DNA from: Oscillospiraceae bacterium
Lineage (GTDB): Bacteria > Bacillota > Clostridia > Oscillospirales > Acutalibacteraceae
Reading direction: 5' to 3'
Assembly (NCBI GenBank): GCA_910574995.1
Contig: CAJTCS010000001.1
Span: 434,001 to 498,000 of the forward strand
Length of the DNA: 64,000 nt
The position numbers and the translations under genes are program-made. Under the pieces are notes generated by a model. The model made no database searches. It had not been told where the DNA came from and saw nothing but the letters and a program-made list of their open reading frames with translations. Positions 33,356-38,267 of the stretch are shown piece by piece; the first letter of the stretch is position 1, and every line of letters starts with the position of its first letter.

Positions 33356-35647
33356 TCATCCTTTCAACTCCACCCGGCGGATCTTCCCGCTGATGGTTTT
33401 GGGCAGGTCGTCCCTGAATTCTACGATGCGGGGGTACTTGTAGGGGGCGGTGTGCTTTTTTACGTAGCCCTGTATCTCCTTTTTCAGGGCCTCTGTCCCC
33501 TCGGTACCCTTGGTCAGTACCACAAAGGCTTTTACCACCTGGCCGCGTACGGGGTCGGGGGCGCTGGTAACGGCGCACTCCAGGACATAGGGCAGTTCCA
33601 TGATGACGCTCTCGATCTCGAAGGGCCCTATGCGGTAGCCGCTGGATTTGATCACATCGTCGGTACGGCCTACGTACCAATAGTAGCCGTCTTCGTCCCG
33701 CCAGGCCGTGTCGCCAGTGTGGTACATGCCGTCATGCCAGGCTTCCCGGGTGTTTTCCTCGTCCCGGTAATAGCCCATGAACAGGCCGCAGGGCGCGCCC
33801 TTGTCCGTGCGGATGACGATCTCGCCCGTTTCGCCCACAGGGGCGGGGGAGCCGTCTGGCAAGACGATATCTACGTCGTACAGGGGGCTGGGGACGCCCA
33901 TAGACCCGGTTTTGGGCACGGTGCCCACAGGGTTATAGATCGAGAGGGTGGTCTCCGTCTGGCCAAAGCCTTCCATCAGGGGAAGGCCCGTGGCCCGCTT
34001 CCACTGCTCGTATACCTCGGGGTTCAAGGCTTCGCCGGCGGTGGTAGAGTACTCGATGGAGGACAGGTCGTACCGGGACAGGTCCTCTTTGATGAAGAAG
34101 CGGTACATGGTGGGCGGGGCGCAGAAGGTGGTGATATGGTACCTTGCAAACATGGGCAAAATGTCGTGGGCGTCGAACTTGTCGAAGTCATAGGTGAAGA
34201 TGGCGGCCTCGTTCATCCATTGGCCATAATATTTCCCCCACAGGGCTTTGCCCCAGCCGGTGTCGGAAATGGTGAAATGCAGGCCGTCGGGGTTCACGTT
34301 GTGCCAGTATTTGGCGGTGATGAAGTGCCCCAGGGCGTATTTGTAGCTGTGCTCGGCAATCTTGGGGTAGCCCGTGGTGCCGGAGGTGAAGAACATCAGC
34401 ATGGGGTCGCTGCCGCAGGGGGAGTCGGGCTTTCTCTCGTAGGCGCCGGGGAAGGCCTCCACCTCTTTGTCAAAGTCATGCCAGCCCAGGCGGCTGCCGC
34501 CCACCATAATCCGGATATCTACCCCGCTGCCCTGGGCGGCGCGGTCAGCCTCTTCGGCTACCTGGCCGTCTGCTGTACACAGGATGGCCTTGACCCCGGC
34601 GGCCTTATAGCGGTAGTCGAAGTCGTGCTCCATCAAAAGGTTGGTGGCGGGGATGACCACCGCGCCCATCTTGTGCAGGGCCGTGATGACGAACCAGAAT
34701 TGGTAATGGCGTTTCAGCACCACCATCACCCGGTCGCCCCGCCGGACGCCCAGGGACTCCAGGTAGTTGGCAGTTTTGTTGGACCATTTTTTCATGTCCC
34801 CAAAGGTGAACCGGCGTTCGGTTTTATCCCGGGAAACGTGGAGCATGGCCAGCTTGTCCGGGCTCTTTTCCGCGATGGCGTCCACCACGTCGAAGCCGAA
34901 GTTGAACTCTTCCTCGTTCGTGAAATGGATGCCCTTCAAGATGCCGTTCTCATCAAGTTCTGTATGCACAAAGGGGTCAGAGACGGTTTCCCGGTTCTGG
35001 CGGGCGATCCTGGCGTCGATAAGCTTCTGGAAGCGGTCCTCCTCCTGCCCCTGGGCAAATTCCTCCGGCCCCTTCAATACCAGGGCGTAAAATTCGCAGT
35101 CCTCGCCGCCGGCGGCGATCATGCCATGGGGTGTGGCGGAATTATAATAGATGGTGTCGCCGGGGTATAGGGTCTCTACGTGGCTGCCTACCTGTACCTT
35201 CATGGTACCTTTTATGACGATGTCGAACTCCTGCCCCACGTGGGTGGAAAGCTTGATGGCCACCTTCTGCTCGGCCTCGTTGTAGGGCATGGTGACATAG
35301 AAGGGCTCGGCGGTCTTGTTCTTGAACAAAGGAGCCTTGTTCAGGTACTTGAAGCCTTGCCGCCGGGTGATGGGAAGGCCGTCCCCTTTGCGGGAGACCG
35401 TATAGCTGGACAAGGTGGGGCTTGCCCCTTTTATCAGGTCCGTGGGGTCAATGGTGAACCGCTGGGCGCATTTGTAGATAAAGGTAAAGCTGAAGTCCCG
35501 CTCCCCCTGTTCGCATGCCTGGTATTCCTCTTTAGAAATGCCGGTGCATTTGGCCATTTCCTCCTCTGACAAGCCCATGATTTCCCGCATGGTGCGGATG
35601 CGCTGGGCAACTTCCCCCAGCTGTGCTTTCAGGTCTGCCTTTTCCAT
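33356..35647 (-). CDS. XRE helix-turn-helix + cupin + medium-chain acyl-CoA synthetase fusion
   Basis: 763 residues in one frame. Residues about 10-72 are an XRE-type helix-turn-helix (LGEVAQRIRTMREIMGLSEE, then E-E-M-A-K). Residues about 115-190 form a cupin barrel with GTMKVQVG and YPGDTIYYNSATPHG. From about 205 a complete AMP-forming acyl-CoA synthetase follows: TSGTTGYPK, the SDTGWGKALWG segment of medium-chain synthetases, GFGQTETT, YVGRTDDVIKSSGYRIGP and the catalytic Lys in PKTISGKIRR. The natural substrate is a carboxylic acid, probably short, branched or medium chain. AAGGAG precedes the ATG. A T-box leader lies upstream. A DNA-binding/cupin sensor fused to the enzyme suggests it also regulates. 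Confidence 0.85.
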   Translation of the reverse strand: MEKADLKAQLGEVAQRIRTMREIMGLSEEEMAKCTGISKEEYQACEQGERDFSFTFIYKCAQRFTIDPTDLIKGASPTLSSYTVSRKGDGLPITRRQGFKYLNKAPLFKNKTAEPFYVTMPYNEAEQKVAIKLSTHVGQEFDIVIKGTMKVQVGSHVETLYPGDTIYYNSATPHGMIAAGGEDCEFYALVLKGPEEFAQGQEEDRFQKLIDARIARQNRETVSDPFVHTELDENGILKGIHFTNEEEFNFGFDVVDAIAEKSPDKLAMLHVSRDKTERRFTFGDMKKWSNKTANYLESLGVRRGDRVMVVLKRHYQFWFVITALHKMGAVVIPATNLLMEHDFDYRYKAAGVKAILCTADGQVAEEADRAAQGSGVDIRIMVGGSRLGWHDFDKEVEAFPGAYERKPDSPCGSDPMLMFFTSGTTGYPKIAEHSYKYALGHFITAKYWHNVNPDGLHFTISDTGWGKALWGKYYGQWMNEAAIFTYDFDKFDAHDILPMFARYHITTFCAPPTMYRFFIKEDLSRYDLSSIEYSTTAGEALNPEVYEQWKRATGLPLMEGFGQTETTLSIYNPVGTVPKTGSMGVPSPLYDVDIVLPDGSPAPVGETGEIVIRTDKGAPCGLFMGYYRDEENTREAWHDGMYHTGDTAWRDEDGYYWYVGRTDDVIKSSGYRIGPFEIESVIMELPYVLECAVTSAPDPVRGQVVKAFVVLTKGTEGTEALKKEIQGYVKKHTAPYKYPRIVEFRDDLPKTISGKIRRVELKG

Positions 35648-35760
35648 ATCTGCTTGTGCTCCTTTCTGGTTGGGCCGTATAAAGTCTGCCAGTTTTCTTA
35701 CAGTGGATATAATGGGCTGGACATGCTGTGGATTTTCAACGCCGGCCTCCCGGGAAAAAG

Positions 35761-36068
35761 AAAAAACCGCCCCACGGAAGGAAATCCTTCCATGAGACGG
35801 GCTGCTATCAGTCCGCGGTACCACTCATCTTGCGCTTTCGCGCCCCTTATTGGGCTCTGACAAGCCCTATGCACTAACGCAGCATACGCGGAGGACGCCT
35901 ACTTACCCCTTTTTATGGTTTCCCAAAACAGGCTTTTGGGCCCTCGGCTCGGAAGGGATTGGCCTATGGAACGCCTTGCGCTGGCTTGCAGCAGCCGCCA
36001 GCTCTCTGAAGCAAGGTATGTTCCCGCCGTCTTCGTCACAGCCTTTTGCCTATGGAATTGTAAAATCT
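35761..36068 (-). ncRNA. T-box leader (tRNA-sensing) with terminator
   Basis: On the minus strand the T-box sequence TGGTACCGCGG (35813-35823) is followed by a 16-bp terminator stem with a 2-base loop (35767-35800) and six T residues (35761-35766). The 5' half has the Stem I hallmarks: GACGAAGA near the base, then AGAGAGCTGGCGG and a CTGCTGCAAGCCAG distal loop. ATGAG ahead of the T-box can pair with CTCAT in the terminator, giving the antiterminator. The specifier is best read as ATC (isoleucine), in CCA-ATC-CCTTCCGAG, but this is tentative. The T in TGGT fits a tRNA with discriminator A. The controlled genes are the acyl-CoA synthetase fusion and the MazG-like gene. Confidence 0.9.
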
Positions 36069-36074
36069 TTTCCA

Positions 36075-36103
36075 ATTATATACGCCTGCCCCCGTTTTGT
36101 CAA
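36075..36103 (-). promoter_or_regulatory. Consensus sigma-A promoter of the T-box transcript
   Basis: Perfect TTGACA (36098-36103), a 17-base spacer and perfect TATAAT (36075-36080) on the minus strand, giving a start near 36068. It is divergent from the gntR promoter at 36144. Confidence 0.93.
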
Positions 36104-36143
36104 GAGGGAAATCCCCAGGGGGAAGGGCCCGCTGAAAAAAGCC

Positions 36144-36172
36144 TTGACAAGCAAACGCGGGCGGTGTATACT
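36144..36172 (+). promoter_or_regulatory. Promoter of the gntR-ABC operon
   Basis: TTGACA, a 17-base spacer and TATACT, followed about nine bases later by the inverted repeat at 36181-36204. Confidence 0.88.
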
Positions 36173-36180
36173 ACAAACAT

Positions 36181-36204
36181 GGTTAATTACTGAAGTGGTT
36201 AACC
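36181..36204. promoter_or_regulatory. Predicted GntR/YtrA operator
   Basis: GGTTAATTACT-GA-AGTGGTTAACC: the arms match at 9 of 11 positions. It sits between the transcription start and the ribosome site of gntR, where a bound repressor would block transcription, so autoregulation is likely. Confidence 0.7.
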
Positions 36205-36225
36205 AATTTGGAAAGGGGGCACGGC

Positions 36226-36606
36226 ATGTTTAAGTTGGAGCTGGACGGGGAAAGGCCCATCTTCCAGCAGATAGCGGATGGGCTGGAGGATGCGGTCCTT
36301 TCCGGCGCGCTGGGCGAAGGGGCGCAACTGCCCTCCATTACCGAGCTTTCCGTACAGTACACCATCAACCCCGCCACCGCCTTGAAAGGCATAAACCTGT
36401 TGGTAGACCAAGGCGTGGCCTACAAAAAGCGGGGCGTGGGGATGTTCGTGGCGGAAGGGGCCCGGGCTGCCTTACAAAAAAAGCGCCAGGGCGAATTTGC
36501 CAGGCGTTATGTGCGGGCCTTGGCCGCGGAGGCCAGGCGGCTGGGCCTGGGACGGGAGCGGCTGCTGGAAATGGTCGCCCGGGAATATGACCGGGACAGC
36601 GATTGA
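36226..36606 (+). CDS. GntR family regulator, YtrA type
   Basis: 126 residues, the short YtrA form. A winged helix (about 8-75, with PIFQQIADGLEDAVLSGAL and TINPATALKGINLLVDQGV) is followed by a brief C-terminal helical dimerisation arm and no effector domain. YtrA regulators repress adjacent ABC transporters and often respond to cell-wall antibiotics. The ATG follows AAAGGGGG. It heads gntR-ATPase-permease with short gaps. Confidence 0.87.
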   Translation: MFKLELDGERPIFQQIADGLEDAVLSGALGEGAQLPSITELSVQYTINPATALKGINLLVDQGVAYKKRGVGMFVAEGARAALQKKRQGEFARRYVRALAAEARRLGLGRERLLEMVAREYDRDSD

Positions 36607-36625
36607 GAAAGGGATGTGAGCAGAG

Positions 36626-37477
36626 ATGGCCATACAGACCGACAAAATATGTAAAAGCTTTGGGAACGTGCAGGCCCTGAAAGGGGTGTCCGTATCCTTC
36701 GAGGAAAACAAGATCTATGGGCTGCTGGGGCGTAACGGCGCGGGGAAATCCACCCTGCTGAACGTGCTGGCAAACCGCATGTTTGCCGATTCAGGGTCTT
36801 TCACCGTAGACGGGGAGCCTGGAGGGGAAAACGACCGGGCCCAGTCGAAGCTGTTTTTGATGAGCGAACAGACTTTGCACCCAGAGGGCATGCGGGTGGG
36901 CAAGGCGTTCCAGTGGACCCAGGCGTTTTACCCCAGCTTCGACCAGGGGTATGCCCTGCGGCTGGCCGGGGAGTTCCAGCTGGATACCCATACGAAGATG
37001 TCCGGGCTTTCCACCGGCTACCGCTCGATCTTCAAGCTGATTTTGGGCCTTTCTGTAAACGTGCCTTATGTGCTGCTGGACGAGCCGGTATTGGGGCTGG
37101 ACGCCAACCACCGGGAGCTGTTTTACCGGCGGCTGCTGGAAAAGTATGCGGAAAACCCCTTCACGGTGGTGCTGTCCACACACCTGATCGAAGAGGTGGC
37201 CGACCTGATCGAGGATGTGGTCATCATCAAGGCGGGGACGGTCATCCGCCAGGAAAGCCGGGAAAGCCTGCTTTCACAGGGATACACCGTTTCCGGCGGG
37301 GCCGGGGCGGTAGAAGCGTATATCCAGGGGCGGCAGGTGCTGGGGGTAGACGCCCTGGGCGGCCTGCGCACAGCCTATGTGCTGGGCGAGGCGGACAAAA
37401 CCGCCCAATCTGCCAAAGACTTGGAATTTGGCGCCATGGACCTGCAGAAGCTGTTCATCCAGCTGACCAATTCTTGA
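36626..37477 (+). CDS. ABC transporter ATP-binding protein, YtrB-like
   Basis: 283 residues. Walker A is GRNGAGKST (about 33-41), Walker B VLLDEPVLGLD near 150, and the switch His lies in STHLIEEV near 185. The signature is degenerate: LSTGYRS in place of LSGGQ, as often seen in YtrB-type ATPases. A roughly 80-residue C-terminal extension follows. It is 19 bases after gntR and 16 before the permease gene, forming one operon. Confidence 0.85.
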   Translation: MAIQTDKICKSFGNVQALKGVSVSFEENKIYGLLGRNGAGKSTLLNVLANRMFADSGSFTVDGEPGGENDRAQSKLFLMSEQTLHPEGMRVGKAFQWTQAFYPSFDQGYALRLAGEFQLDTHTKMSGLSTGYRSIFKLILGLSVNVPYVLLDEPVLGLDANHRELFYRRLLEKYAENPFTVVLSTHLIEEVADLIEDVVIIKAGTVIRQESRESLLSQGYTVSGGAGAVEAYIQGRQVLGVDALGGLRTAYVLGEADKTAQSAKDLEFGAMDLQKLFIQLTNS

Positions 37478-37493
37478 GAAAAGAGGCTGCCTT

Positions 37494-38267
37494 ATGAAAA
37501 TCAAACCTTCCCTCCGTTACCAGCTGTATGACCAGCGCACCGCCGTTTTGGTCTATTATGGCGTTATGGTAGCCATGATCCTGCTGAACCTGCTGTTTCT
37601 CCCTTTCGCAGGGGATTCTGACCTCCGCGTCACCTCCGGCGGCATAACCGCCGTGACCGCCGTGTTCGTCTTTGTAGTGGCGCTTTGTTCTTTCAAAGAA
37701 AGCTTCCTGTTGGAGCTGCAGCACGGGGTTTCCCGCCGCTGCCAATTCCTGTCCCATCTGGCGGCCATGGGCGTTTCCTGCGCGGTAATGGCCGTTGCGG
37801 ACGAGATATATACCCTTTTCATCGCCCTGCTTAGCTTTCCCTTCCCCAACAGCGTTTTCTCCTACTCCCTCTACGAGATGCTCTATGCCTCTGACCTTAC
37901 GGAAGCAGGCGGCAGCGTCTCCTATACCATACACACTTCGGGTTCTACTGTGCTGTTCTCTGTTGTGTTCAGCTTTTTTGTGCTGCTGGCCATCAGCGCC
38001 TTTGGTTATTTGATCACCACGTTCAACTACCGGCTGCACAAGTGGGGGAAGATCATCTTCTGGGCAGGCTGGCCCGTGATGCTGATAGCCCTGGGTACGC
38101 TGCTGGACCATTACCCGGCCCAGGTTGCCAGCATGAAAGCGTGGCTGCTGCAAGCTTGTTCCACTTTGCTGGGGTCGCTGCCCCTCTGCTGCCTTACCTG
38201 CCTGGCGCTGGCCGCGGTATTTTCCGGCCTCAGCTGGCTGCTGATGCGCCGGGCGCAGATGAAGTAA
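37494..38267 (+). CDS. ABC transporter permease (partner of the YtrB-like ATPase)
   Basis: 257 residues with six predicted membrane helices (about 20-40, 50-70, 88-118, 140-170, 180-202 and 222-248) and no other domain. The size and gene order fit the membrane half of small GntR-linked ABC systems. The ATG follows AGAGG by seven bases. Substrate unknown. Confidence 0.8.
   Translation: MKIKPSLRYQLYDQRTAVLVYYGVMVAMILLNLLFLPFAGDSDLRVTSGGITAVTAVFVFVVALCSFKESFLLELQHGVSRRCQFLSHLAAMGVSCAVMAVADEIYTLFIALLSFPFPNSVFSYSLYEMLYASDLTEAGGSVSYTIHTSGSTVLFSVVFSFFVLLAISAFGYLITTFNYRLHKWGKIIFWAGWPVMLIALGTLLDHYPAQVASMKAWLLQACSTLLGSLPLCCLTCLALAAVFSGLSWLLMRRAQMK

Follow-up and report, generated by a model that had tools for sequence, protein, structure and literature searches.

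The question raised by this locus is why a T-box leader stands before a gene for an acyl-CoA synthetase. Within the window (the whole stretch of 64,000 nucleotides analyzed here), the original prediction had placed a full leader of this kind, behind a perfect-consensus promoter, directly upstream of an XRE-cupin-ligase gene and a MazG-like gene, had tentatively read its specifier codon as ATC (Ile), and had suggested that the enzyme activates 2-methylbutyrate for isoleucine synthesis.

The leader and its specifier codon

The leader, on the minus strand from 36103 to 35767, is a T-box. A cmscan of positions 35500-36300 returned a minus-strand match to Rfam model RF00230 at 36048-35790, with a score of 68 bits, an E value of 1.6e-14, and coverage of model positions 1-219 of 219. 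This score lies below the Rfam gathering score for RF00230 of 93 bits, and therefore the whole-window scan at the gathering threshold found no T-box, the match being revealed by the low-threshold scan of the smaller region. Only one of the ten RF00230 matches in the organism's own genome exceeded 93 bits, and the nine below threshold included the leaders of genes named by eye as pheS, thrS, alaS, and ileS.

The promoter, TTGACA-17-TATAAT (36075..36103, minus strand), agreed with the consensus at 12/12 positions, as had been claimed. Downstream of it are Stem I (35946..36044, minus strand), which was delimited by the RF00230 alignment and by two-sided helix changes in 110 homologues and carries AGAGAG at 36007-36002; the T-box sequence TGGTACCGCGG (35813..35823, minus strand), identified from the same alignment and from the sequence, whose UGGU pairs with the tRNA end ACCA; and an intrinsic terminator (35767..35800, minus strand) of 15 pairs, 9 of them G-C, with a T run, which is the alternative to the antiterminator. 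The fold of the last 75 nt of the leader was calculated at -29.7 kcal/mol, and three tRNA-Val species of the genome end in ACCA. A specifier codon, AGAGAG, a UGGN sequence, and a downstream terminator, the features by which a T-box is recognized, are all present, and together with the full-length RF00230 match they bear out the full leader that had been described. Its layout suggests a T-box of the transcription-terminating type, in which tRNA would decide between the two alternative structures.

The letters AGUA/GAA are common, although not universal, in the specifier loop of T-boxes. They were absent from the specifier loop of this leader, the 5' side of which reads ACGGCGG; in their place, a GGC/GCC helix directly adjoins the specifier in Stem I (36044-35946), forming a compact specifier loop. 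The pairs of the helices beside the codon were found to vary on both sides in a Stem I alignment of 110 distinct sequences, built without structure, with one pair being A-U in 99 and G-C in 10 and a second being U-A in 47, C-G in 35, U-G in 7, and A-U in 6 of 107, and since the rows were chosen by a rule requiring three of the four pairs in the first helix beside the codon, that first helix is biased towards pairing. Two other T-box leaders (L023 and L025) apparently carry, as judged by eye, a repeat-like sequence between Stem I and the remainder of the leader. Diverging from the T-box promoter in the window (36226-38267, plus strand) are what look by eye like a GntR-like regulator gene and a pair of ABC transporter genes, whose own promoter matches 11/12 of the consensus.

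The specifier codon was read as ATC (Ile), at 35959..35957 on the minus strand. The Rfam alignment places ATC on the consensus columns preceding the helix. The same codon was given by the layout of codon, one base, 4-base helix, one base, and GAGC-like sequence, which yielded the expected codon in 8/8 other T-boxes of the genome (tyrS, ileS, pheS, leuA, alaS, thrS, cysE/cysS, and trpB-like, with codons and gene names assigned by eye). The ninth other T-box of the genome has TGG before an aminotransferase gene, and because this gene names no amino acid it was left outside the 8/8 check. Homologous leaders agreed, with ATC the commonest codon (95/151 ORFs). The tentative reading of the specifier thus held up on both grounds, and the RF00230 alignment, which had been proposed as a check, yielded no unrelated codon.

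The ileS T-box of the genome (L009) resembles this leader in its Stem I, ATC specifier, T-box sequence, and terminator, but the leader examined here controls an acyl-CoA synthetase. The Ile-type leaders differ from the tyrS leader in being without its AGUA/GAA specifier-loop letters. The tRNA-Ile(GAU) itself was not found among the 39/51 tRNA matches of the genome that were examined, and an approximate pattern search for it was also empty; the draft genome comprises 54 contigs, and tRNA-Ile(GAU) genes often lie inside rRNA operons, which draft genomes lose.

The fused ligase and its Ile-type and Val-type relatives

The gene behind the leader (33356..35647, minus strand) encodes an XRE-cupin-AMP-ligase fusion of 763 aa (P0002), which is probably a 2-methylbutyryl-CoA synthetase, judging from its Pfam domains (HTH_19, residues 15-76; Cupin_2, 132-188; AMP-binding, 257-627; AMP-binding_C, 677-755) and its similarity to the solved structure 3ETC. 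Its ATG at 35647 is preceded by GAAAGGAG, and no missed gene lies between leader and ligase in the window's locus, which confirms that the leader is directly upstream of the ligase. In L031 and L036, a 268-aa gene lies between the T-box and the ligase. The claim of a MazG-like neighbor fared less well: a gene is present at 33350-33039, but it had no Pfam or NCBIfam match at 1e-3 and is not conserved, as tblastn detected it in only 2/29 other loci among L012-L040 (directly behind the ligase in L013 and approximately 0.9 kb behind it in L014) and in none of loci L058-L062. It therefore appears to be local to the nearest kin, and a conserved role for it was rejected. Behind the ligase in L038 (3877-5262) and L039 is a gene for a protein of more than 460 aa with, by eye, an ACT-like start and a metallo-hydrolase-like later part.

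The best solved relative of P0002, with 631 bits compared to 344 bits for the next structure, was 3ETC, which is MacsMa, the 2-methylbutyryl-CoA synthetase of Methanosarcina acetivorans. The catalytic part aligned over P0002 residues 245-762, whereas no XRE-cupin part is present in the matched stretch of MacsMa (chain residues 52-574 of 580). Having AMP-binding and C-terminal domains and lying closest to 3ETC, P0002 groups by sequence with the MacsMa-type medium-chain acyl-CoA synthetases. The available text of PMC10455477 gives 2-methylbutyrate as the preferred substrate of MacsMa. Trp259 of MacsMa is reported to be critical. The position of Trp448 in P0002 is W in 94/94, 24/24, and 19/19 rows of the class alignment; its counterpart in 3ETC is the Trp of KYW, which the chain numbering suggests to be MacsMa Trp259.

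P0002 was matched somewhere in 137/148 relatives, many through the common ligase domain only. The specifiers were surveyed in 30 loci from this search, the best 80 of at least 565 confirmed GTDB matches, and 40 chosen stretches, with some genomes counted twice via two collections. Before 151 homologous ligase ORFs, a codon-blind rule read ATC in 95, GTA (Val) in 23, another codon in 3, and none in 30, some of these last being due to the ends of contigs or to errors made by the rule. The "none" label was wrong for L099 and for copy 1 of both L123 and L127, all of which have ATC T-boxes, and these three errors leave the ATC/GTA result unaffected. Other ORFs read as "none" are without a T-box, in particular those of most rumen loci named Ruminococcus, including R. 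flavefaciens 007c and SAb67. The absence in these two counts against the reading proposed below, as it was in bacteria of their type that branched acids were studied. Of the three "other" reads, L155 and L168 proved by eye to be ATC, and L135 had no T-box; L035, in which no T-box motif was present, was missed by the ORF filter of the survey.

Eight tandem ligase pairs were inspected, and in seven of these an Ile T-box (ATC) precedes copy 1 and a Val T-box (GTA) precedes copy 2; Rfam recovered both T-boxes in all seven ATC-GTA pairs (14/14, E <=1.9e-13). Copy 2 of the eighth pair (L143) has no T-box of its own. Among the best GTDB matches there were 11 further two-copy loci, 10 of which carry ATC and then GTA (L123 and L127 by eye); in the remaining one, L095, copy 1 is truncated at its beginning. 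A FastTree tree was built from 142 proteins plus an outgroup; the method is quick, and several end branches are long. In this tree, the 23 GTA rows and L143 copy 2 formed one clade with a support of 100, and there was a single ATC/GTA change. For the tree labels, L031 and L104 were set to ATC, L155, L166, L168, and L171 were labeled by eye, L079, L095 copy 1, and L125 were left unlabeled because their upstream regions are cut off, and L025 and L177 were dropped.

Sixteen alignment columns passed a screen for differences between the two classes, 13 of them upstream of the catalytic domain. Within that domain, residue 466 was the only separator without exceptions, being Gly in 94/94 Ile-type proteins and Ala in 24/24 members of the Val clade; it was also Gly in 19/19 rows labeled as being without a T-box. 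The XRE-cupin part has two positions, 96 and 116, that separated the classes equally cleanly. Residue 466, which is Gly in P0002 (codon at 34250..34252, minus strand) and tracks the Ile/Val specifier, directly follows the invariant Trp in SDTGW(G/A)K. It is Gly in 3ETC as in P0002 and Val in acetyl-CoA synthetase 9g79, and we take it to be the position of Val310, a pocket residue in the acetyl-CoA synthetase of Salmonella. Ala466 would then place one extra methyl in the pocket, as would be needed for isobutyrate, which is one carbon shorter than 2-methylbutyrate. A second ligase of the genome (C1:618458-619999) has Ala at this position.

Sequence by itself cannot fix a substrate, and MACS enzymes can be broad in their first half-reaction (available text of PMC10455477), which would allow that some other acid, straight chain or aromatic, is activated and that the Ile T-box was merely inherited. 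We consider this very improbable, however, since the Ile and Val specifiers track both the two paralogues and residue 466, and since ligase genes cluster with those of a ketoisovalerate-type ferredoxin oxidoreductase (VOR).

Genes for the later steps and for the classical route

According to match coordinates, the best VorB match was 0.9-2.8 kb behind the ligase and on the same strand in 14/64 fusion genomes (G031, G032, G038, G050, G055, G068, G077, G080, G085, G088, G103, G111, G130, and G146); among the best VorB matches of the 29 genomes of the window's genus, none was adjacent to the ligase. In each of the five clusters inspected by eye, the order of genes was P-loop ATPase, ferredoxin, VorB, beta, gamma, and IlvE-like aminotransferase, and in four of the five a LeuA-like gene preceded by a T-box motif comes next; in three, the specifier was read by eye as CTC (Leu). 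Rfam confirmed the LeuA-side T-boxes in both clusters that were searched. VorB and IlvE were above their NCBIfam cut-offs in the one cluster tested (L180), and the one LeuA-like gene tested fell below all cut-offs.

The original prediction had advised looking for ketoacid:ferredoxin oxidoreductase genes elsewhere in the genome, and such a cluster was found at C7:33262-36848, where a VorB above cut-off is accompanied by ferredoxin, beta, and gamma genes. An IlvE above cut-off is at C2:62707. In the VOR cluster, the alpha gene is separated from the beta gene by one that appears by eye to be alpha/beta-hydrolase-like (L055:8562-9365). The ligase and VOR reactions are reversible in principle, and the two enzymes could serve to break down isoleucine and valine fermentatively, with a gain of ATP. 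We give this almost no credence, because a T-box that is on under amino-acid shortage would have the wrong sign for degradation and because most of the inspected clusters run on into a T-box and a LeuA-like gene. Since a T-box is on when its amino acid is short, the sign fits biosynthesis.

IlvC, from the classical route, was not found in the genome, as neither KARI_C nor KARI_N had a match while 14/14 controls did. Outside the genus, IlvC was present in 5/35 genomes with the fusion compared to 57/84 without it (p = 7e-8), the fusion genomes being drawn from the P0002 match table after matches with inner stops were left out; with one genome per genus, again outside the window's genus, the values were 5/32 and 50/73 (p = 5e-7). 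Within the genus, the fusion and IlvC occur together in 8/29 genomes, and the fusion is thus no simple replacement for IlvC. The sole IlvD/Edd match of the genome (L178) scored 506 bits versus the ilvD cut-off of 618 and adjoins an apparent KDPG aldolase gene (by eye). Of the five PALP matches, one was CysK; the rest appeared by eye to be threonine synthase, a trpB-type gene, and two fragments of a single gene, so that no IlvA was seen. Two adjacent PALP-family pieces at C6:147363-147976, in different frames, are perhaps one broken gene. The genome keeps CimA (C4:40777) and acetolactate synthase (C5:62071) although no IlvC was found, and because these two are present the proposition that it has no other isoleucine route at all was softened.

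The best NCBIfam model for P0002 was the methylbutyryl-CoA synthetase MbcS (NF047394), with 420.7 bits; this is below the equivalog cut-off of 850, which speaks against the substrate assigned here. MbcS of S. aureus activates 2-methylbutyrate and isobutyrate for membrane fatty acids (available text of PMC10026030), and the acyl-CoA made here could likewise serve mainly to prime the synthesis of anteiso branched-chain membrane fatty acids, with an Ile T-box inducing the ligase since 2-methylbutyryl-CoA ordinarily derives from isoleucine. We judge this to be unlikely, as the ligase genes that cluster with those of VOR and an IlvE-like aminotransferase, and the anti-correlation of the fusion with IlvC, point to amino acids. 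Dual use, for an amino acid and for membrane fatty acids, is possible. The activation of 2-methylbutyrate for isoleucine, as originally suggested, is supported by the similarity to 3ETC, the ligase-VOR-aminotransferase clusters, the Ile/Val pairs, and the absence of a detected IlvC in a genome with VOR and IlvE.

A proposed route from branched acids to isoleucine

We think it likely that the locus encodes the first enzyme of a route from 2-methylbutyrate through its CoA thioester, VOR, and transamination to isoleucine, under the control of an Ile T-box. Uncharged tRNA-Ile would pair with the AUC specifier and with UGGU, the antiterminator would be favored, and the XRE-cupin-ligase would be made. 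The ligase would convert 2-methylbutyrate to 2-methylbutyryl-CoA, VOR would carboxylate this reductively to 3-methyl-2-oxopentanoate, and a branched-chain aminotransferase would yield isoleucine; the organism itself may rely on this route. The paralogue that relatives carry behind a Val (GUA) T-box would serve the same kind of route, from isobutyrate to valine. The ligase gene most likely belongs itself to amino-acid biosynthesis, and the contrast drawn in the original prediction, that the T-box controls neither an aminoacyl-tRNA gene nor an amino-acid gene, therefore falls.

The fused XRE-cupin part might, as one tentative idea, be a second sensor of its own pathway, with the acyl-adenylate or acyl-CoA state setting DNA binding. 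BirA is an HTH-ligase of this kind and acts as a sensor in the biotin pathway, and by analogy the gene would answer both to tRNA charging and to branched-acid supply. An apparent separate XRE-cupin gene (by eye) is directly upstream of the second ligase of the genome (C1:618458-619999), as in L152-L154, and the fusion may thus unite a regulator with its target.

Rumen organisms such as Methanobrevibacter ruminantium take a comparable branched-acid route, with 2-methylbutyrate as the precursor of isoleucine and isobutyrate as that of valine, and the available text of PMC7356843 cites work of 1962-1969 for these precursors. That route is cited as physiology or genome inference, whereas the present locus offers a candidate activating enzyme with tRNA-reading control. 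The iorAB-paaK genes of Geobacter also combine an acid-CoA ligase with a 2-oxoacid:ferredoxin oxidoreductase under amino-acid-linked control, at a predicted tryptophan-linked regulatory site, but they are aromatic, and in the available text of PMC2700814 only the leuA element is called a T-box. The genome studied here has an IorA above cut-off and two PaaK-like ligases at C1:626914-632056 (L054); in L002 and L005, an aminotransferase gene and a trpB-like gene each have a T-box of their own with a Trp codon (TGG). These are perhaps an aromatic counterpart of the branched-acid route. No acyl-CoA synthetase under a T-box appears in the available portions of the T-box literature (PMC2494555, PMC3766115, PMC7778990, PMC2700814, and PMC11477304). 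The literature searched, which did not extend to two main T-box surveys, gave no precedent for branched-acid ligases that are controlled by Ile and Val T-boxes and associated with VOR clusters. T-boxes, MACS enzymes, and the branched-acid route are each known, and within that literature their combination appears to be new.

Taken together, these results suggest that these gut and rumen bacteria build isoleucine, and valine by means of the Val twin, from short branched acids and not by the textbook route. For the activating step of the branched-acid route, they provide candidate genes that extend over a broad range of gut clostridia. They also offer a way of reading the regulation whereby the specifier codon would name the product, a prediction of the substrate from a single residue (Gly466 versus Ala466), and a marker in the genome for bacteria possibly dependent on the branched acids of their neighbors.
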